In this document: positions 46,225 to 54,408 of the stretch, piece after piece
Layout: each line of letters starts with the position of its first letter
Numbering within the stretch: position 1 is the first letter of the stretch
NCBI RefSeq assembly: GCF_000718305.1
Contig: NZ_JOFQ01000004.1
Span: forward strand, 124,001-188,000
Length of the DNA: 64,000 nucleotides
Source of the DNA: Streptomyces niger
GTDB taxonomy: Bacteria > Actinomycetota > Actinomycetes > Streptomycetales > Streptomycetaceae
Direction: 5' to 3'
Notes under the pieces: generated by a model
Databases searched by the model: none
The model's input: only the letters and a program-made list of their open reading frames with translations
Told to the model about the DNA's origin: nothing
Program-made: the position numbers and the translations under genes

Positions 46225-46270
46225 CCAACCGAACGATCAAGGCCACTCACCTCACCTGGAAGGGCCAGAA

Positions 46271-46429
46271 ATGATCTTCCTCGTCGCAGCCTTGCTCCTC
46301 CTGGGAGTGCTCGTGGGCACCGCGGCACACCTTCCGCTCGCCGCGACGCTCACCGCGGCCGCCGCGATCGCCGCCTGGCTGCTGATCTTCGCTGTCCGCG
46401 AATACCGCGCGAAGGAGGCCCGTCGATGA
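46271..46429 (+). CDS. Small two-helix membrane protein (52 aa)
   Basis: ATG at 46271 opens a 52-codon frame coding for two hydrophobic helices (FLVAALLLLGVLVGTAAHL and AATLTAAAAIAAWLLIFAV) and a short basic tail REYRAKEARR. The stop TGA (46427-46429) overlaps the ATG of the DUF4190 gene, so the two are translationally coupled, which strongly supports that it is real. The family is not known to me. Expression is probably controlled by the divergent TetR. Confidence 0.75.
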   Translation: MIFLVAALLLLGVLVGTAAHLPLAATLTAAAAIAAWLLIFAVREYRAKEARR

Positions 46430-46854
46430 CCACCCTCATCCACCGCCGCCCCGACACCGAGTCCGACGAGACCCGTACCGCCGCCGACACGCCCCGTACC
46501 GGCGCCGACGACACCCGTACCGGCGCGACCGAGGTGCAGGCCGAGTCCGGCACCGAGTCCGGCACCGGGTCCAGCACCGAGTCCGGCTCCGGCGCCGCGA
46601 CCGGCGCCCGCCGCAAGGGGACCCAGGCCGACGGCATGGCCGTGGCCTCCTTCATCCTCGGACTCGTGGGCCTGCTGGTCATGAACCTCGTCCTGGGTCC
46701 GCTCTCCCTGGTCCTGGGCGCCATCGCCCTCCACCGGGGCACCACCCGGCGCGGCCGCGCCCTCCTCGGCATGACCCTCGGCGCCGCGGACCTCATCGTC
46801 CTGGCCGCCATCGTCACCGCCGACGGCACGGTCAGCTGGCACTTCCCCGCGTGA
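46426..46854 (+). CDS. DUF4190 domain membrane protein
   Basis: 142-aa protein with a disordered Thr/Ser/Glu-rich N-terminal half carrying SGTESGTGSSTESGSG repeats, then two membrane helices (MAVASFILGLVGLLVMNLVL and ALLGMTLGAADLIVLAAIV) with ALHRGTTRRGRALLG between them, the typical DUF4190 hairpin. The function is unknown; such proteins are common small envelope components. ATG at 46426 overlaps the preceding stop (ATGA). Confidence 0.8.
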   Translation: MTTLIHRRPDTESDETRTAADTPRTGADDTRTGATEVQAESGTESGTGSSTESGSGAATGARRKGTQADGMAVASFILGLVGLLVMNLVLGPLSLVLGAIALHRGTTRRGRALLGMTLGAADLIVLAAIVTADGTVSWHFPA

Positions 46855-47031
46855 CCCGGGCCGCCCACGGGGCCGCGCCACGCCACCACCGGGGCGTCGG
46901 AACCGTCTGACCACCCAGCGGCGAGACCGGGCGCGACCCCATCCGCTACCCTGTTCACGGCCAGCCGATGGTGCGTACACCGCCCGCCGTGACCCTTCAC
47001 CCAGGGCGCACCGCACCACCACTGACCGCCC

Positions 47032-47107
47032 GCCTCCGTAGCTCAGGGGATAGAGCACCGCTCTCCTAAAGCGGGTGTCGCAGGTTCGAATCCTGCCGGG
47101 GGCACCA
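47032..47107 (+). tRNA. tRNA-Arg (anticodon CCT)
   Basis: Complete cloverleaf: acceptor GCCTCCG pairs with CGGGGGC (one G-T pair), D-arm GCTCAGGGGATAGAGC, anticodon stem CCGCT/AGCGG enclosing CTCCTAA with anticodon CCT (reads AGG), T-arm CAGGTTCGAATCCTG, discriminator A, and encoded CCA (47105-47107). AGG is a rare codon in this genome. A perfect terminator follows at once. The 3' end of such tRNAs is a common integration site, and a disrupted locus lies just beyond. Confidence 0.96.
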
Positions 47108-47110
47108 GGA

Positions 47111-47143
47111 CGAAGGCCCCGACCGAATCGGTCGGGGCCTTCG
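47111..47143 (+). terminator. 15-bp stem terminator of tRNA-Arg
   Basis: CGAAGGCCCCGACCG pairs perfectly with CGGTCGGGGCCTTCG around a three-base loop, three bases after the CCA end. Confidence 0.9.
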
Positions 47144-47489
47144 GCGTGTGTGGCGACGGAACGTTGTGGCAACCGCACTGGAAGCTATGGGTGGTTGAGG
47201 CGCGGGGCCGGCGTATCCGCACTATGGAACGGGAGTTCTTACGCCGCTTCAGTGATCTTGTCGGGTGCGGGCAAGCCGCGGGCGACTACCCCGGGCCGGC
47301 ACGGTTAGGTGAGAGCGTGGCAAGTGAACTCTTCACGCACCCGCGGGCCTTCGCGGGTGCGCGTACGACGTCGTGGTCGGTGATGTAGGTGGGGCACGAG
47401 GTCTCCCTGCACCGATACGGGACCGGCTGTCCGCGCCGCCGGGTGGTGGAAGGACGGCGTCGGCGGGGACCGGCGGTCGGGGGGTGCGG
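47144..47489. other. Gap between tRNA-Arg and the truncated polyprenyl synthase
   Basis: The 346-bp stretch has mixed codon bias and no convincing complete gene. One plus frame encodes MEREFLRRFSDLVGCGQA (from 47224) and a minus frame encodes PTYITDHDVVRAP (around 47385-47347); both look like scraps rather than intact genes. Lower GC than the neighbours and the position at a tRNA suit a former insertion boundary. I find no copy of the tRNA 3' end elsewhere in the window and no integrase. Confidence 0.45.
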
Positions 47490-48149
47490 ATGTCCGCGCT
47501 GAGCAGCATGGCGGCGGCCGTGCCCGCCGCGGGCGAGGCCCCCGGGCGTGGCGCAGGGGCGGGAGGTGACGGAGCGGAGCTCTTCGCGTGGGCGCGGGAG
47601 CTCGTCACGCCCGCGCTGCGCCGGGCGGTCGAGGACCTGCCCGCGCCGCAGCGGGAGATCGTCGGGTATCACCGCGGCTGGCACGGAGTGGCGGGGCCCG
47701 CCGCGCAGGGCGGTGGGAAGGCCGTACGCCCGGCCCTCGCCTTCCTGTCGGCGATGGCGGTCGACACGCCGCCCGGGAGCGTGGTCCCCGGAGTGGTCGC
47801 CGTCGAGCTGGTGCACGACTTCTCCCTCCTGCACGACGACGTCATCGACGCGGACCCGCTGCGTCGCCACCGGCCCGCCGTGTGGGCGCGGTACGGGAGC
47901 CCTGCGGCGGTGCTGACCGGCGACGCCCTGCTGGTCAGGGCGCTCGCCGTACTCGCCGCTGACGCTCGGCCGTACAGCGCGCCGGCCACCGGGGAACTGT
48001 CCCGCATGCTGGCGGACTTGCTGCGCGGCCAGAGCCAGGACGTGGCCTTCGAGAGCACCGCCCGGGTGCGCCCCGAGGAGTACTTGGAGATGGCCGCCGG
48101 GAAGACGGGGGCCCTGATGGCGTGCGCGTGCGCGCTGGGAGCGCTGCAC
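47490..48149 (+). pseudogene. Polyprenyl (isoprenyl) diphosphate synthase, 3' part missing
   Basis: The first ~220 residues of a trans-isoprenyl diphosphate synthase: GGGKAVRPALAFL (residues 74-86, IPP-binding Lys/Arg), HDFSLLHDDVIDADPLRRHR with the first Asp-rich motif DDVID (116-120), and MAAGKTGALMACACALGAL (201-219). The match stops at about residue 220, before the second Asp-rich motif, so the enzyme cannot be functional. The frame stays open to 48491 but that tail is only the antisense of the facing terpene synthase gene. ATG at 47490. In streptomycetes close relatives sit in terpene or encapsulin loci. Confidence 0.75.
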
Positions 48150-48476
48150 GCGGCCGGCCAGGGCGGCGAACGCGGCGGGCCGCGCGCTGAGCGGGCCCTT
48201 GTCGCACCGGCTGTCGTCGAAGGCGAAGCCCCAGTACACCCACAGCGACGTCCACAACAGTCGGTCGTCGGTGGCGGCATCGGGGGCGAACCGGGCGAAG
48301 AAGTCGGTGCTGCAGGTGGCAACGGTCCAGGCCCGCTCCTCGTCGGTCGCGCACATCGGGCTGCGCCGGATCCACTCCTTGGCCCGTTCGTCGACGAGGT
48401 GAGCACGCGGGTGCCGGGCCGACTCCAGGGGGCAGAAGTGTGGCGGGAGATCGATCTCGTTGACGGTCACTGCCAT
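48141..48476 (-). pseudogene. Class I terpene synthase, N-terminal fragment
   Basis: About 112 residues of a bacterial sesqui/diterpene cyclase: the start VNEIDLPPHFCPLESARHP, DEERAWTVATCSTDFFARF, then LLWTSLWVYWGFAFDDSRCD, where FDDSRCD is the metal-binding Asp-rich motif, and PAAFAALAGRVQR. Homology ends where the facing polyprenyl synthase fragment begins, so the NSE motif and the rest of the active site are gone. ATG at 48476 with AGAGG upstream. The overlap of the two fragments (48141-48149) marks the join. Confidence 0.72.
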
Positions 48477-48612: not shown

Positions 48613-49269
48613 TCAGCTGCCGGGCGTCTCTTCCACCGCACCGCTCCCCTTCGTGGCGCCGCCGTCCTCCGCCGAACCGTCTCCCCCCGAAGTCCCGGTC
48701 TCCCGCGCGCCTTCGTGGCCGGCGTCCTCGCCCGTCTGATTGTCGATCTGGGTGATGGCCCACTGGGCCCAGTCGCGGGACGCGGGGAGCATGTGCAGGC
48801 CGAAGCCTGCGGCGAGGTGCCCGAAGGCGAGCGGATCGGGCAGGACGCCGTCGTGCGGATCGAAGTTCGCGGACTCGACCAGCGCGGTCAGGGCATCGAG
48901 GTCCCGCTGGACCGCCGCCGCGTAGTCCGCGAGCACGCTGCGCGCCTCCTTCGGGTCGAGCGCGAAGAGGAGGAACAGCCGCAGCACGAATTCGTTGCGG
49001 ACCACGGGGGTGCGGGGCGGGTTCAGCAGCCAGTGCCGCAGGTCCGCACGGCCCGCCTCGGTGATCGCGTAGGTCTTGCGGCCACGCGCTCCCTCCTCGA
49101 CGACCTCGGCGAGTCCGTCGGCGGCCAGCCTGTTGAGCTCTTGGTAGACCTGGTTGTGCTTGGCATGCCAGGCGTAGCGGTCCAGGCTCCGCTCGAACCT
49201 CTTGGTCAGCTCGTACCCGCTGCCCGCCTCGTCGGCAAGCAGCCCCAGCAGTGCGTACCGCAGCGACAT
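48613..49269 (-). CDS. PadR family transcriptional regulator
   Basis: Winged-helix repressor of 218 aa of the PadR/Vir group. LRYALLGLLADEAGSGYELT, AKHNQVYQELNRLAADGLAE and ARGRKTYAITEAGRADLRHW are the classic PadR DNA-binding elements; the C-terminal half (NEFVLRLFLLFALDPKEARS) is the dimerisation domain. The last ~35 residues are a disordered Gly/Ser/Glu tail. ATG at 49269. It is divergent from a carotenoid oxygenase operon across a 143-bp gap containing a 63-bp imperfect palindrome, so it most likely represses both directions; PadR proteins usually respond to small aromatic or lipophilic ligands. Confidence 0.9.
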   Translation of the reverse strand: MSLRYALLGLLADEAGSGYELTKRFERSLDRYAWHAKHNQVYQELNRLAADGLAEVVEEGARGRKTYAITEAGRADLRHWLLNPPRTPVVRNEFVLRLFLLFALDPKEARSVLADYAAAVQRDLDALTALVESANFDPHDGVLPDPLAFGHLAAGFGLHMLPASRDWAQWAITQIDNQTGEDAGHEGARETGTSGGDGSAEDGGATKGSGAVEETPGS

Positions 49270-49310
49270 CGCTCTTCTCCGCCCTTCTTCTTGCCACCAC
49301 CGATACTAAC

Positions 49311-49373
49311 TCAACGACATGTAGAAGTTGACACGTGACGGCCAACGTGTCACTTTCTACCTGTCGAAGTTGA
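49311..49373. promoter_or_regulatory. 63-bp imperfect palindrome, PadR operator candidate
   Basis: The left arm TCAACGACATGTAGAAGTTG (continuing ACACGT to 49336) pairs with a right arm that reads TCAACTTCGACAGGTAGAAA (continuing GTGACACGTT) on the minus strand, 49373-49344. Only a 4-base insertion and a few mismatches break the symmetry over some 26 bp per arm, centred near 49340. It fills the divergent padR/carotenoid oxygenase promoter gap. Confidence 0.75.
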
Positions 49374-49412
49374 GCGCAGGCAGCGCCATCCGATGCCACA
49401 CGCCAGAAGGCG

Positions 49413-50972
49413 GTGACCACGGATGGCACGCGCACGGAGGGACTGCCCACGGGGATGGACGACGCGATGACCGACAGGACGACACGCATACCCGGCACTG
49501 CCGGACACGGCGCGGACAGCGCGCCCTCGGGCACCGAGCCCCGCCCACTTGCCCTGTCGGGCCACCTCGCACCCGTACCGACCGAGATCGACGCGTACGA
49601 CCTCCCGGTCAGCGGCACGCTGCCTCCGGAACTGCGCGGCCGCTACCTCCGTAACGGCCCGAACCCGCTGCCCGGTAGGGGAGGCGGCGCACACTGGTTC
49701 CTCGGGCACGGCATGCTGCACGGCATACGGATCGCGGACGGCCGCGCCAAGTGGTACCGGAACCGCTGGGTGCGCACCACCCGCCTCGCCGGCATCCCGT
49801 CCACCCGCCCCGACGGCACTCGCGACCTGGCGAACAACCCGGCCAACACGCACGTCATCGAGCACGGCGGCCGGCTGCTCGCCCTGTGTGAGAGCGGCCT
49901 GCCGCACCGGGTGACGCCCGACCTCGACACGCTCGGGCCGGAGGACTTCGGGGGCCGGCTGCACACCGCCATGACGGCGCACCCCAAGGAGGACCCGGTC
50001 ACCGGGGAGCTGCACTTCTTCGGATACGCGCCGACGCCGCCGTATGTCACGTACCACCGGATGTCGGCCTCCGGGGAGCTGGAGCACAGCCGCGTGGTCG
50101 ACGTTCCGGCGCCGACGATGATGCACGACTTCGCGATCACCGAGCGGTACGTGGTCTGGCTCGACCTGCCGGTCACCTTCGATGCCGCCTTGCGCGGCAC
50201 GGGCAGCATGCCGATGCGCTGGAACGACGCGTACGGCGCCCGGCTGGGCGTGATGGAGCGGGCCGGCGACGGACCGGTGCGGTGGTTCGACATCCAACCC
50301 TGCTACGTGTTCCACGTCGGCAACGCCCGGGAGGACACGGCGGGGCGGATCGTGCTGGACGCCGTCCGGTACGGCCGCGACACCTTCAACGGCCTGTGGG
50401 AGGCGATCGGCGGCGCGAGCGCCGGCCAGGCGGCTCCGGCCCCCGGGACGGCCCCGCCGGGCGTCTCCGGGGCGAGGGCCGCGGCTCCTGCCGCCCCGGG
50501 GCCGGTGCTGTACCGCTGGACGCTCGACCCGGCGGCCGGAGCCGTGAGTGAAGCGCCGCTGGACGATCTCCCGGTCGAGTTCCCGACGCTGCACGCCGGG
50601 CACGTGGGCCGCGCCCACCGGTACCTGTACCTGGTCTCGGACGCACCGAGCGGCGCGGTGGTGCGGTACGACGTGACCACCGGCGAGCGGCAGACGCACG
50701 ACGTCGGACCGGACCGGGCGGTCGGCGAGGCGGTGCTCGTACCGGCACAGGACGCGCACGCCGAGGACGAGGGCTGGCTCCTGTCGATCGTCACCGACCG
50801 CTCCGGAGCCGGCTCGGAGCTGCTCGTCCTGGACGCCACCGACGTCACCGCGGCCCCGGTCGCCACGGTCCGGCTGCCGCGTGCGGTCCCCGCGGGCTTC
50901 CACGGCTCGTGGATCGCCGACGGAGACGGCGGCGCGGACGCGGCCGCACTCGGGAACGAGACCGGGCGATGA
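49413..50972 (+). CDS. Carotenoid oxygenase (apocarotenoid/lignostilbene-type dioxygenase)
   Basis: Non-haem Fe(II) dioxygenase that splits a C=C bond of a carotenoid, apocarotenoid or stilbene (519 aa). The N-terminus PELRGRYLRNGPNPLPGRGG and HWFLGHGMLHGIRIADGRAK are strongly conserved. The four iron-binding histidines are visible in MTAHPKEDP, MMHDFAITE, YVFHVGNARED and PAGFHGSW (the last near the C-terminus). A 25-residue Ala/Pro insertion (SAGQAAPAPGTAPPG) lies in the second half. GTG at 49413 follows AGAAGGCG. It overlaps the next gene by ATGA. No carotenoid synthesis genes are in the window, so the substrate must come from elsewhere. Confidence 0.92.
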   Translation: MTTDGTRTEGLPTGMDDAMTDRTTRIPGTAGHGADSAPSGTEPRPLALSGHLAPVPTEIDAYDLPVSGTLPPELRGRYLRNGPNPLPGRGGGAHWFLGHGMLHGIRIADGRAKWYRNRWVRTTRLAGIPSTRPDGTRDLANNPANTHVIEHGGRLLALCESGLPHRVTPDLDTLGPEDFGGRLHTAMTAHPKEDPVTGELHFFGYAPTPPYVTYHRMSASGELEHSRVVDVPAPTMMHDFAITERYVVWLDLPVTFDAALRGTGSMPMRWNDAYGARLGVMERAGDGPVRWFDIQPCYVFHVGNAREDTAGRIVLDAVRYGRDTFNGLWEAIGGASAGQAAPAPGTAPPGVSGARAAAPAAPGPVLYRWTLDPAAGAVSEAPLDDLPVEFPTLHAGHVGRAHRYLYLVSDAPSGAVVRYDVTTGERQTHDVGPDRAVGEAVLVPAQDAHAEDEGWLLSIVTDRSGAGSELLVLDATDVTAAPVATVRLPRAVPAGFHGSWIADGDGGADAAALGNETGR

Positions 50973-51793
50973 ACGCATCCCTCTACAACGACAAGCAGCA
51001 AGGAGTCGGAACCGTGCACACGGGGGCGAGGATCATGGAGCCGAACACGGCAGCGGAACGGCCTGAGGGGCCCGGCGAACAGCCGGTCACGGGCGCAGCG
51101 GAAGTCACCGCCACGGGGGCGGCGACGAGTGCGCACACGGAGGAGACCGCAACCGCCGCACGTGGGGGCGAGCGGTGGTGGAACGGCCTCGGGGAGATGT
51201 TCTCGACGCTCTTCTGGGACATCGGCCTGTCGATCGCCGTCTACTACGTCCTGCGGGCGTGCGGCGTGGACGTGTACCCCTCGATGCTCGGCGCCACGGT
51301 CGCCGCCGCGCTCCGCGTGGTCTACGTGGCGGTCCTCCCCCGCCGCTTCGATGTCTTCGCGGCGTTCATGCTCTCCGTGTGGGGCGTCGGCCTGCTGCTG
51401 TCCTTCGTGAGCGGCGACGCGCGGTTCGTCCTGGCCAAGGACTCGGTGCCGACGGGCCTGGCCGGTCTGATCTTCCTGGGTACGGCGGTCGCCGGGCGGC
51501 CGATGATCTACGCGGTCGTACGGCGCACCCAGGGACGCACGCCGCGCGCGCTCGCCGAGTTGGAACAGCGCTGGGCCACCGAACCGGCGTTCCGGCGCAC
51601 GCTCACGGTCATGACCTGCGTATGGGGCGTCGGCATGCTGGCCGAGGCCGTCGTCAGGCTCCCGATGATCTACCTGCTTCCCGTCGATGCCGCCACCGGC
51701 CTCTCGGGCCTGATGCAGCTGGCGACCTTCGGTCTGCTGACCGTCTACACGGTGGTGCACCGTAAGTGGGCCACCCGCCACCTGCGGCGCTGA
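50969..51793 (+). CDS. VC0807 family membrane protein coupled to the carotenoid oxygenase
   Basis: Membrane protein with about six helices; the core FWDIGLSIAVYYVLRACGVD, YVAVLPRRFDVFAAFMLSVW, DSVPTGLAGLIFLGTAVAGR, PMIYAVVRRTQGR and WGVGMLAEAVVRLPMIYLLP resembles the VC0807/DUF3159-like family, whose function is unknown. ATG at 50969 overlaps the oxygenase stop as ATGA; GTG at 51014 with AAGGAG upstream is an alternative start that removes a poorly conserved leader. Tight coupling to the oxygenase and the shared PadR-type operator imply a joint role, perhaps substrate or product handling in the membrane. Confidence 0.7.
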   Translation: MNASLYNDKQQGVGTVHTGARIMEPNTAAERPEGPGEQPVTGAAEVTATGAATSAHTEETATAARGGERWWNGLGEMFSTLFWDIGLSIAVYYVLRACGVDVYPSMLGATVAAALRVVYVAVLPRRFDVFAAFMLSVWGVGLLLSFVSGDARFVLAKDSVPTGLAGLIFLGTAVAGRPMIYAVVRRTQGRTPRALAELEQRWATEPAFRRTLTVMTCVWGVGMLAEAVVRLPMIYLLPVDAATGLSGLMQLATFGLLTVYTVVHRKWATRHLRR

Positions 51794-51851: not shown

Positions 51852-52116
51852 ACGTGCATGCGGCACGGGTGGCGCCGCAGGGACGCCCGACGCAGAATCC
51901 GGGTGCGCGCCGAAGGGCGGCGGGACCGTCACGACGACCGTGACGGGGACGGTATCGCGTGCGAGCCGTACGAAAGCTCTCCGTGACCGGACGCTCGCGC
52001 ACCACGGCTCCGCGGCGAGCCCCGACGGGGTCCGGTTATGACCTCGCTCACGAGGCCTTGGCCAACACCCGGCTGGGTCGGCGGTAGTTATCCACAGGCT
52101 CAGCGGCGAGGTGGCC

Positions 52117-54408
52117 ATGGCTCGTAAGCTGCCAGACATGAACGACGTGGACGGTGGGCTGGACGAGGCTCCGGGCGGCGTAGGCGCAGGCGCCGGCCCG
52201 AGCACAGGCGAGCATGCGCGGACCGGCGGGGCACCGGGCGGTGAGGCGCAGGAGGTCCTGCACCGGGTCTTCGGCTACGACGCGTTCCGCGGCAGCCAGC
52301 AGGAGATCGTCGAGCACGTCATCGGCGGCGGCGACGCCGTCGTGCTCATGCCGACCGGCGGCGGCAAGTCGCTCTGCTACCAGATCCCCTCGCTCGTGCG
52401 CCCCGGCACGGGCGTCGTCGTCTCCCCCCTGATCGCGCTGATGCAGGACCAGGTCGACGCGCTGCGGGCGGTCGGCGTCCGCGCGGGCTTCCTCAATTCC
52501 ACCCAGGACCTGGAGGAGCGCCGCCTGGTGGAGGCGGAGTTCCTCGCCGGCGAGCTGGACCTCCTCTACCTCGCGCCGGAGCGGCTGCGCGTGGAGCAGA
52601 CCCTCGGCCTGCTGGACCGCGGCAAGATCTCCCTCTTCGCCATCGACGAGGCGCACTGCGTCGCCCAGTGGGGCCACGACTTCCGCCCCGACTACCTCGC
52701 GCTGTCGATGCTGCACGAGCGCTGGCCCGAGGTGCCGCGGATCGCGCTCACCGCCACGGCCACCGAGGCCACCCACACCGAGATCACCTCGCGGCTGCAC
52801 ATGGAGCAGGCGCGGCACTTCGTGGCCAGCTTCGACCGGCCCAACATCCAGTACCGCATCGCGGCCAAGAGTGAACCGAAGAGGCAGCTGCTGGAGCTGT
52901 TGCGCACGGAGCACGCCGGGGACGCCGGCATCGTGTACTGCCTCTCCCGCGCCTCGGTGGAGAAGACCGCCCAGTTCCTGGTGCAGAACGGCATCGACGC
53001 GGTGCCGTACCACGCCGGGCTGGACGCGCAGGTCCGCGCGCGCCACCAGTCGCGCTTCCTCCGCGAGGACGGCCTCGTGGTCGTCGCCACCATCGCGTTC
53101 GGCATGGGCATCGACAAGCCGGACGTGCGTTTCGTGGCACACCTGGACCTGCCCAAGTCGGTGGAGGGGTACTACCAGGAGACCGGCCGCGCCGGGCGGG
53201 ACGGCCTGCCGTCCACCGCCTGGCTGGCGTACGGGCTGCAGGACGTCGTCCAGCAGCGGAAGATGATCGACGGCTCGGAGGGCGACGAGGCGCACCGGCG
53301 TAGGTTGGCCGCGCACCTCGACGCGATGCTCGCGCTGTGCGAGACGGTGGAGTGCCGGCGGGTACGGCTGCTCGCCTACTTCGGCCAGGAGAGCACGCCG
53401 TGCGGCAACTGCGACACCTGCCTGGCGCCGCCGCAGTCGTGGGACGGCACGGTGCCGGCCCAGAAGCTGCTCTCCACGGTCGTCCGGTTGCAGCGCGAGC
53501 GCGGGCAGAAGTTCGGCACGGGGCAGATCGTCGACATCCTGATGGGCCGGAAGACCGCCAAGGTCATTCAGTTCGACCACGACGCGCTGAGCGTGTTCGG
53601 GATCGGCGCGGACCTGCGGGAGGCGGACTGGCGGGGCGTCGTACGGCAGTTGCTGGCGCAGCGACTGCTGGCGGTCGAGGGCGACTACGGCACGCTGGTG
53701 CTGACCGAGGCGAGCGGCGAGGTGCTGCGCGGCGGGCGCCAGGTCCTCATGCGGCGGGAGCCGGAGAAGCCCGCGCGCGCGGCCAGGGCGAAGGCCGCGA
53801 AGGGCAAGCGCGCGCCGGTGGACCTGCCGGCGGAGGCGATGCCGGTCTTCGAGGCGCTGCGGGCCTGGCGCGGGCAGACCGCGAAGGAACAGGGCGTCCC
53901 GGCGTACGTGATCTTCCACGACGCCACACTGCGCGAGATCGCCACCGCCCGGCCGGCCGGCATCGCCGAGCTGGGCGCGGTCAACGGCGTCGGCGAGAAC
54001 AAGCTCGCCAAGTACGGCGAGGCCATCCTGGAGGTACTGGCCGACGGGCCGAGCGCCGCGGAGGCGAGCACCGAGGGGGCGAGCACCAAGGGGGCGAGCA
54101 CCGGAAGGGCGAGCGCCGAGACGGCCAGCGCCGAGGGACCCGCCGGCAACGGCCGGGCGGTCGGTAACCGGACGGGCGGTACCCAGGCGGGCGGTAGCCA
54201 GGCGAGCGGTAGCCGGACGAACAGTGGACGGACGGACGGTGGACGGACGGACGGTGGACGGCCGGGCAGCGGCTCGGGGGCAGCCGCCTCCGGCAGGGCT
54301 GCCACGGGCGCCGCCGGTCGGCCCGCCGCTCCGGAGCCCGACGCCGACTGGGACTGGGACATGGAGGAGCCGCCGGCGGAGGAGGACCGGGAGGGCGCCT
54401 ATGGGTGA
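52117..54408 (+). CDS. recQ: ATP-dependent DNA helicase RecQ
   Basis: 3'-5' helicase for replication-fork repair and recombination (763 aa). Motif 0 is [12 protein letters not shown]; motif [13 protein letters not shown]; motif II IDEAHC; then ALTATAT, and motif [16 protein letters not shown]. The RQC zinc site follows ([23 protein letters not shown]), and an HRDC domain lies near 580-650 ([19 protein letters not shown]). The C-terminal ~115 residues are disordered with AST and SGRTDGG repeats, ending in an acidic [14 protein letters not shown] tail that could bind SSB or the polymerase. ATG at 52117 has GAGG five bases upstream; GTG at 52111 is possible. Confidence 0.94.

Follow-up and report, generated by a model that had tools for sequence, protein, structure and literature searches.

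A candidate PadR-controlled module joining a carotenoid oxygenase to a VC0807-family membrane protein in Streptomyces niger

Repressors of the PadR, LmrR, LadR and LftR type act locally on efflux pumps and detoxifying enzymes, and excerpts of three papers describe for them genes adjacent to the promoters they act on, inverted ATGT/ACAT-like sites and membrane-protein targets (PMC3506622, PMC6457526, PMC6624303). The locus treated here, in the window (the whole 64,000-nucleotide stretch of Streptomyces niger DNA that was analysed), shares these traits, the sites only as a loose match, but differs in its targets, a carotenoid cleavage dioxygenase (CCD) and a VC0807-like protein. We consider it a ligand-inducible PadR module controlling CCD and VC0807, with a lipophilic compound as inducer, at a probability of about 0.55; observed at the locus are the gene order, conserved catalytic residues and an operator-like site, and the trio recurs in other lineages. 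The features are as follows.

48613-49269, minus strand: padR, a PadR-s1-type repressor of 218 aa with a winged helix and a Vir_act_alpha_C domain.
49467-50972, plus strand: CCD gene (RPE65 family), with 501 aa when read from its likely ATG; as listed, the ORF begins at GTG 49413.
51014-51793, plus strand: gene for a VC0807-family multi-helix membrane protein; the ORF is also open from ATG 50969.
49310-49374, no strand: probable operator, an imperfect palindrome, from its arms, fold and conservation in 3/3 clade members.
47490-48147 (start approximate), plus strand: polyprenyl diphosphate synthase remnant, 3'-truncated, from PF00348 and NF041169 scores and a Ru73 alignment that stops at the junction.
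48141-48147, no strand: deletion junction with 6-7 bp shared (GCGCTGC), from blastn.
48141-48476, minus strand: terpene synthase remnant, 3'-truncated, about the first 110 residues, from NF041565 and identity to Ru73.

The padR, CCD and VC0807 genes are all intact, and padR is divergent from the other two; profile matches and open reading frames agree with the initial annotation on the layout. The likely CCD start, common to the window and Streptomyces sp. Ru73, is ATG 49467, preceded by GGGATGGA / GGGGGAAGGA, and not GTG 49413; counted from there, the padR-CCD gap is 197 bp. The ATGA overlap proposed earlier between CCD and the membrane-protein gene is present in both the window and Ru73, where the ORF's ATG 50969 overlaps the CCD stop (50969-50972), but GTG 51014, behind AAGGAG, looks the likelier VC0807 start because residues 1-15 agree with Ru73 at only 8/15 positions and residues 76-272 at 191/197.

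In profile searches PadR matched PF03551 with 43.8 bits (cut-off 27) and PF10400 with 41.4 bits (cut-off 22.4). A winged helix with a large C-terminal domain is the PadR-s1 domain make-up; excerpts give a size of ~180-200 aa for this subfamily (PMC3506622, PMC6457526) and two signature tyrosines in its winged helix (PMC6457526). The corresponding residues are Tyr19 and Tyr42, positioned by motif, not by structural alignment. Among 64 PadR relatives the first tyrosine motif occurs in all 64 and the second, by one search pattern, in 35. The nearest solved chains are AphA (1yg2) and PadR (5x11). On the tree the window PadR falls outside a 56-row clade of common-module PadRs (support 100/99), and its role is therefore carried over, by analogy, from relatives. 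A tree joining the MFS-type and 'other' PadRs, apart from the window and canonical PadRs, was not rejected (p-AU 0.40), so that the trees do not prove that the window PadR was recruited separately. Locus L133, which has short CCD matches, was placed in the group without CCD on this tree and counted among the 14 loci with CCD in the padR-anchored tally below. PadR relatives at two loci (L141, L148), with inverted boxes, face MFS exporters, which fits a toxic-compound theme.

The CCD is the sole PF03055 match in the genome (413.8 bits, cut-off 27; 1.5e-123). All four iron-binding histidines named in the initial annotation are there: His172, His220, His283 and His479, numbered from ATG 49467, are each found in 120/120 of the homologues listed. 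In this family these four histidines bind the iron. By fold-family profile and these histidines the protein resembles RPE65 and the carotenoid cleavage oxygenases. Against NF052295 (8'-apo-carotenoid 13,14-cleaving dioxygenase) it scores 392.5 bits, below the equivalog cut-off of 675 that would assign the exact reaction; against NF053778 (lignostilbene dioxygenase) it reaches 192.4 bits, below the equivalog cut-off of 800. The stilbene class, one of two ligand options offered at first, is on these scores the less likely, and a polyene or stilbene as ligand was in any case a guess.

The membrane protein matches NF041646 'VC0807_fam' with 149.7 bits (subfamily cut-off 65) over residues 77-262. 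Its match to PF11361 is weak (18.8 bits, below cut-off), and it is below cut-off as an IspA/IspZ septation protein (PF04279, 14.8/28.7 bits; TIGR00997, 15.4/165.2). Its likeness to the VC0807 family, DUF3159 and IspA-like septation proteins thus lies in the NF041646 match and the weak PF11361 and PF04279 scores, and it differs from them by a long N-terminal extension and by having padR and CCD alongside. An hhalign comparison with a ~190-aa membrane family of other actinobacteria (95.8%, E 7.4e-9, 177 columns) makes the two look like remote relatives. The VC0807 structure model is helical, with mean pLDDT 79.5; Foldseek at E<=0.001 gave no match for it or for the c12 model (pLDDT 92.1), and the VC0807 alignment had no match to PDB sequences at E<=1. 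A VIA search of the c12 model against 186 chains gave middling Z scores to unrelated helical proteins (best 8.3), which excludes nothing. By tblastn, no padR or CCD was found in the 8-kb flanks of four distant VC0807 relatives (4/4). Their neighbours vary (TetR, SDR, HAD, ADP-ribosylglycohydrolase, F420 enzyme; 10 scanned, three without a match), so a link to CCDs is not a general trait of the family. No paper on 'VC0807' was found among open-licence papers.

The palindrome has arms of 22 nt at 49315-49336 and 49345-49366, 86% complementary; the helix 49310-49374 folds with a bulge at z -4.98, with 0/200 shuffles as good; and no other non-coding stretch is as well conserved when the window, Ru73 and S. 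ochraceiscleroticus are aligned as three sequences. The earlier call of a palindrome is thereby upheld, but it takes up only part of the promoter gap that it was said to fill. Within it lie two inverted PadR-like sites, ATGT-AGAAGTTG-ACAC (49319-49334) and GTGT-CACTTTCT-ACCT (49347-49362). PadR sites of the kind ATGT-N8-10-ACAT are described in an excerpted source (PMC3506622). The window's ATGT-N8-ACAC is one letter off this pattern and the inverted GTGT-N8-ACCT two off, a loose match that is no evidence alone, and the conserved palindrome is the stronger sign of an operator. A -35 box may be present as TTGACA (49328-49333); the promoter scan did not find a complete sigma-70-like promoter.

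Inverted TTGACATGTC-like boxes (<=2 mismatches each) lie beside padR at 20/22, 27/29 and 14/15 loci in three sets that overlap in part, with mononucleotide shuffles at 0.00-0.01. A stricter core box is found at 13/22, 11/29 and 8/15 of these loci and in 3/3 members of the window clade (shuffles 0.00). All three clade members have an inverted TGAC[AC][TC]GT pair at offset 16, and the 10-base box gives inverted pairs in 0/3 of them; the window holds a diverged version of the boxes at 49315-49366. From boxes beside padR across loci, with this diverged form in the window, PadR control of the module appears very likely. The exact double box occurs in 13/22 module genomes, every time at this promoter only, and a reversed control pattern was matched in 3/22. 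The full window site (<=3 mismatches) is found in 2/392 same-genus genomes, the genome itself included, namely that genome and one other (G263), at one place each.

Streptomyces sp. Ru73 carries the same trio. In S. ochraceiscleroticus padR and VC0807 are present, with no CCD within the 16.7 kb fetched. Elsewhere in actinobacteria the trio is frequent in a re-ordered form, with padR facing a membrane-protein gene that is followed by CCD. The ~190-aa remote VC0807 relative has a divergent padR at 22/25 loci (none at the other 3/25) and also a CCD at 16/25, in 150 genomes of another family. Outside the window clade, a divergent padR stands at 21/29 CCD loci; tblastn found a VC0807-subfamily gene at 0/29, the membrane partner there, if any, being a remote relative. 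Anchored instead on padR, 29 loci have an adjacent membrane protein in 21 cases, CCD in 14, both in 11 and neither in five. Close to other padR starts the L089 protein gave weak matches, which come from an over-long ORF read in antisense to padR and were left out of the membrane-gene count. The three-gene unit of the initial annotation accordingly stands as PadR, CCD and membrane protein, adjacent in Ru73 and frequent in re-ordered form, but CCD is not a constant member (none within the stretch fetched in S. ochraceiscleroticus and at 6/22 pairs), and tblastn did not find the VC0807 subfamily at the 29 outside CCD loci. The window's arrangement is, judged by gene content, one version of a three-part unit found elsewhere in another gene order, in which the PadR-membrane pair would be at least as central as CCD. 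Among open-licence papers that combine a CCD term with PadR, none, judged from listings, is on such a gene pair.

In the favoured mechanism PadR would bind the two inverted sites of the palindrome between padR and CCD, over the presumed -35 region, and would thereby repress both the CCD-VC0807 operon and its own gene. The inducer would be a lipophilic compound that binds PadR and releases it; an apocarotenoid, a retinoid or a polyene of that kind is the most likely candidate, and some hosts may take it up from outside. The VC0807 protein would then be made as a membrane effector, and CCD would cleave the conjugated chain of the compound. The main competitor, which we regard as unlikely though the best of the alternatives, is turnover of the host's own carotenoids, a tuning of their pool in which PadR responds to a carotenoid or to what its cleavage yields, while CCD cuts back surplus pigment and the membrane protein maintains the membrane. 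It is possible because crtI is above cut-off in 16/22 module genomes, including the window's own, Ru73 and S. ochraceiscleroticus, and the carotenoid-type over stilbene-type scoring of CCD agrees with it; yet four genomes (G762, G696, G780, G685) carry CCD with crtI matches only below cut-off, and shared regulation with crt genes was not seen, the exact double operator being at a single place in 13/13 genomes. A retinal or rhodopsin connection was set aside: PF01036 is above cut-off in 0/22 module genomes (weak matches, E 2e-4 to 9e-4, in three), and the 14 control genomes also had none and so gave no positive control.

Isoprenoid genes do lie 0.1-1.1 kb downstream of padR. No crt gene proper is among the padR-flanking ORFs scanned, as the initial annotation had it, but it overlooked two genes, one for a prenyl synthase and one for a terpene synthase, that are each 3'-truncated and are fused by a deletion of ~4.3 kb relative to Ru73, where the blastn alignment jumps from L002:955 to L002:5243; L003 places the junction likewise, within some bases. 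The prenyl synthase remnant scores 112.9 bits against PF00348 and 233 bits against NF041169 (below the cut-off of 450). NF041169, a family-2 encapsulin cargo profile, was its best match, and the encapsulin idea was rejected: whole prenyl synthase genes are also below cut-off (395.3 bits in L002, 397.6 in L003), and ABC-exporter genes stand beside the whole Ru73 gene. The terpene synthase remnant (NF041565, 37.2 bits on the containing ORF) shares 87.5% identity with the whole Ru73 gene across 112 residues. The trio might then belong to a cluster of prenyl synthase, ABC exporter and terpene synthase, with CCD or the exporter acting on its product, and the complete cassette does adjoin padR in Ru73 and S. 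ochraceiscleroticus, with the terpene synthase following padR in the same orientation. We find this improbable: the cassette has been lost from the window genome, yet its trio ORFs stay open; the operator half-site (<=2 mismatches) is confined to the padR gap of the window, L002 and L003; and the window's prenyl and terpene fragments match at 0/29 CCD loci outside the clade and in 0/20 longer stretches of ~15 kb around loci of that kind. Hardly more credible is that PadR regulates the membrane protein alone, with CCD carried along as a passenger that does something else. Pairs of padR and membrane protein without CCD (6/22 and 10/21, although 1.5-kb flanks can miss a CCD) and the operator directly before VC0807 in S. 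ochraceiscleroticus speak for such independence, but CCD is at 16/22 padR-membrane loci, in two gene orders, and padR faces CCD directly, with no c12 gene between, in 15/21 padR-bearing CCD loci.

Beyond the ligand-inducible module itself, we tentatively suggest, as something we would not yet bet on, that PadR, a VC0807-superfamily protein and CCD form a dedicated unit by which actinobacteria defend themselves against lipophilic polyenes or signal in response to them. It would have been assembled at least two times, with different PadR lineages, membrane subfamilies and opposite gene orders but one operator code; the membrane protein would be its central effector, and cleavage by the oxygenase a further step that some versions do without. 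The module links an orphan membrane family, for which no solved fold was matched, with an enzyme class already known and with a local repressor whose operator can be read. The roles of such bacterial carotenoid oxygenases and VC0807-like proteins thus become directly testable, and the operator could be used as a reporter for inducer screening.

The initial annotation described a padR gene divergent from a carotenoid cleavage oxygenase (CCD; RPE65-type, PF03055) gene followed by a VC0807-family membrane protein gene. That arrangement stands, with each gene over the curated cut-off of its profile:

48613-49269, minus strand: padR, over the curated PadR profile cut-off
likely start ATG 49467, plus strand: CCD gene, over the curated RPE65/CCD profile cut-off
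likelier start GTG 51014, plus strand, downstream of CCD: VC0807-family gene, over the curated VC0807 profile cut-off

The observation was largely right as to genes and palindrome; start codons and neighbourhood are corrected here. GTG 51014, preceded by AAGGAG, is a likelier membrane protein start than the ATG within the overlapping ATGA. The CCD is the sole PF03055 match across the 8.49-Mb genome, and the four histidines reported for it are identical in 120/120 homologues (the best 120 of 5400). Elsewhere in the genome (G000:C6:185914-186450) there is one more VC0807-family gene, a distant one at 31% identity.

Gene order is conserved in Streptomyces sp. Ru73, which has padR / CCD-VC0807 as in the window, with recQ downstream. 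S. ochraceiscleroticus has VC0807 directly beyond the operator and no CCD match within its 16.7-kb locus. Among listed homologues, a 98%-identical CCD comes from S. olivaceiscleroticus, and unclassified Streptomyces supply others of 87% and 80% identity. Both Ru73 (L002:8956-9765) and S. ochraceiscleroticus (L003:8864-9601) have a small extra gene, one homologous cluster, between VC0807 and recQ; ORF calling found no counterpart in the window.

Searching 296 genomes of the class gave 36 with a CCD match at E<=1e-60, and the best 29 loci besides our own were taken. A divergent padR (38-47% identity) is present at 21 of these and absent from eight; the VC0807 subfamily gene is at none of the 29, and c12, a ~190-aa membrane protein, sits between padR and CCD in six. 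The VC0807 model matches c12 weakly (E 7.8e-4, one of three members scanned) and profile-profile comparison gives 95.8% (E 7.4e-9, 177 columns), values that membrane proteins can inflate; the aligned GRP...R...F.R...T.VW pattern, judged from the alignment, exceeds mere hydrophobicity. Within one other family, 150 genomes were searched for c12, and 24 of them yielded 25 loci; a divergent padR accompanies c12 at 22, both padR and CCD are present at 16, and three have neither gene. The window padR search (248 relatives, 33 genomes) gave 29 fetched loci besides our own, with c12 beside padR in 21, CCD in 14, both in 11 and neither in five; the 1.5-kb flanks can miss a CCD, and the locus sets overlap partly (L135/L064 share a genome, as do L157/L054). 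The VC0807-relative profile, run against ORFs of the fetched loci only, matches the c12 gene in 13 of 21 padR loci (E<=1e-3). MFS exporters face padR in three of the five loci with neither gene (L141, L148, L151); operator boxes at offset 16 occur in L141 and L148.

The palindrome reported in the shared promoter gap is an inverted repeat (49315-49336 / 49345-49366) conserved in Ru73 and S. ochraceiscleroticus, and we predict that PadR very likely represses there (probability about 0.85). The full operator occurs in 2/392 same-genus genomes, our own and G263, at one place each (second-strand matches are the same place). A TTGACATGTC box plus inverted copy, at <=2 mismatches per box, lies upstream of padR in 20/22, 27/29 and 14/15 loci, mainly at offset 31 or 16; these counts omit L107, L108 (no located padR) and L114. 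Mononucleotide shuffles gave 0.00-0.01. The strict core TGAC[AC][TC]GT is found in 13/22, 11/29 and 8/15 loci. The window, Ru73 and S. ochraceiscleroticus all have a strict core pair at offset 16, and none of the three has an inverted pair of the 10-base box. Among 22 module genomes the exact double box occurs in 13, exclusively at the padR promoter of the module, and a reversed control pattern matched in three. The window site holds ATGT-N8-ACAC plus an inverted partner, which differ by one letter and by two, respectively, from the ATGT/ACAT motif that PMC3506622 describes for PadR proteins. No complete sigma-70-like promoter came out of a promoter scan; the TTGACA at 49328 is a possible -35 box, and if so the operator would be a repressor site. 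In L107:1380-1520 and L108 (reversed) 1380-1520 a TTGACGTGTC or TTGACATGTC box lies upstream of c12 although the fetched sequence contains no padR; these genes may therefore be under the control of a PadR encoded elsewhere.

In the CCD tree the window protein falls in a 25-row group (92/86): 21 rows beside padR, two without, and two the window's and Ru73's. The 56-row clade of canonical module PadRs (100/99) does not include the window PadR, which may be either their sister or a separate recruit (p-AU 0.40). The window unit departs from the canonical module in membrane subfamily, gene order and PadR branch, which suggests that the same parts may have been re-assembled.

The neighbourhood account also needed amending, since prenyl synthase and terpene synthase remnants lie beside padR. 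In Ru73 and S. ochraceiscleroticus the adjoining cassette comprises a prenyl synthase, a DrrAB-like ABC exporter pair (family matches below their equivalog cut-offs) and a terpene synthase. At 47490-48476 of the window the prenyl synthase and convergent terpene synthase are both 3'-truncated and joined at 48141-48147, with ~4.3 kb absent relative to Ru73 and 6-7 bases of shared sequence at the junction, which is clean and interior to a 453,743-base contig. This scar is an apparent deletion, or possibly an assembly fault; a deletion would have removed the exporter kept in both relatives. The trio's reading frames are still open in the absence of the cassette. A tRNA-Arg(CCT) gene (47032-47107; L003:1197-1270 in S. 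ochraceiscleroticus) lies just ahead of the cassette and recQ (52111-54408) just past the trio, and the stretch between them could be a hotspot for insertions. A long minus-strand ORF (46252-47178) overlapping the tRNA is probably not a gene.

The proposed polyene- or stilbene-sensing unit is partly supported, and also broadened. By profile score the CCD is closer to the carotenoid type than to the stilbene type, with both scores below cut-off. Our carotenoid desaturase survey covered the crtI type (TIGR02734), which is over cut-off in 16/22 module genomes, including our own, Ru73 and S. ochraceiscleroticus; the other six have weaker matches only. Four of these (G762, G696, G780, G685) carry CCD, so in some carriers the substrate may be of external origin, or a different compound may be used. 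A rhodopsin search of the 22 genomes, run without positive control, gave no match over cut-off. It is plausible, at roughly even odds, that a lipophilic compound would induce the operon and that the CCD would then cleave the same compound.
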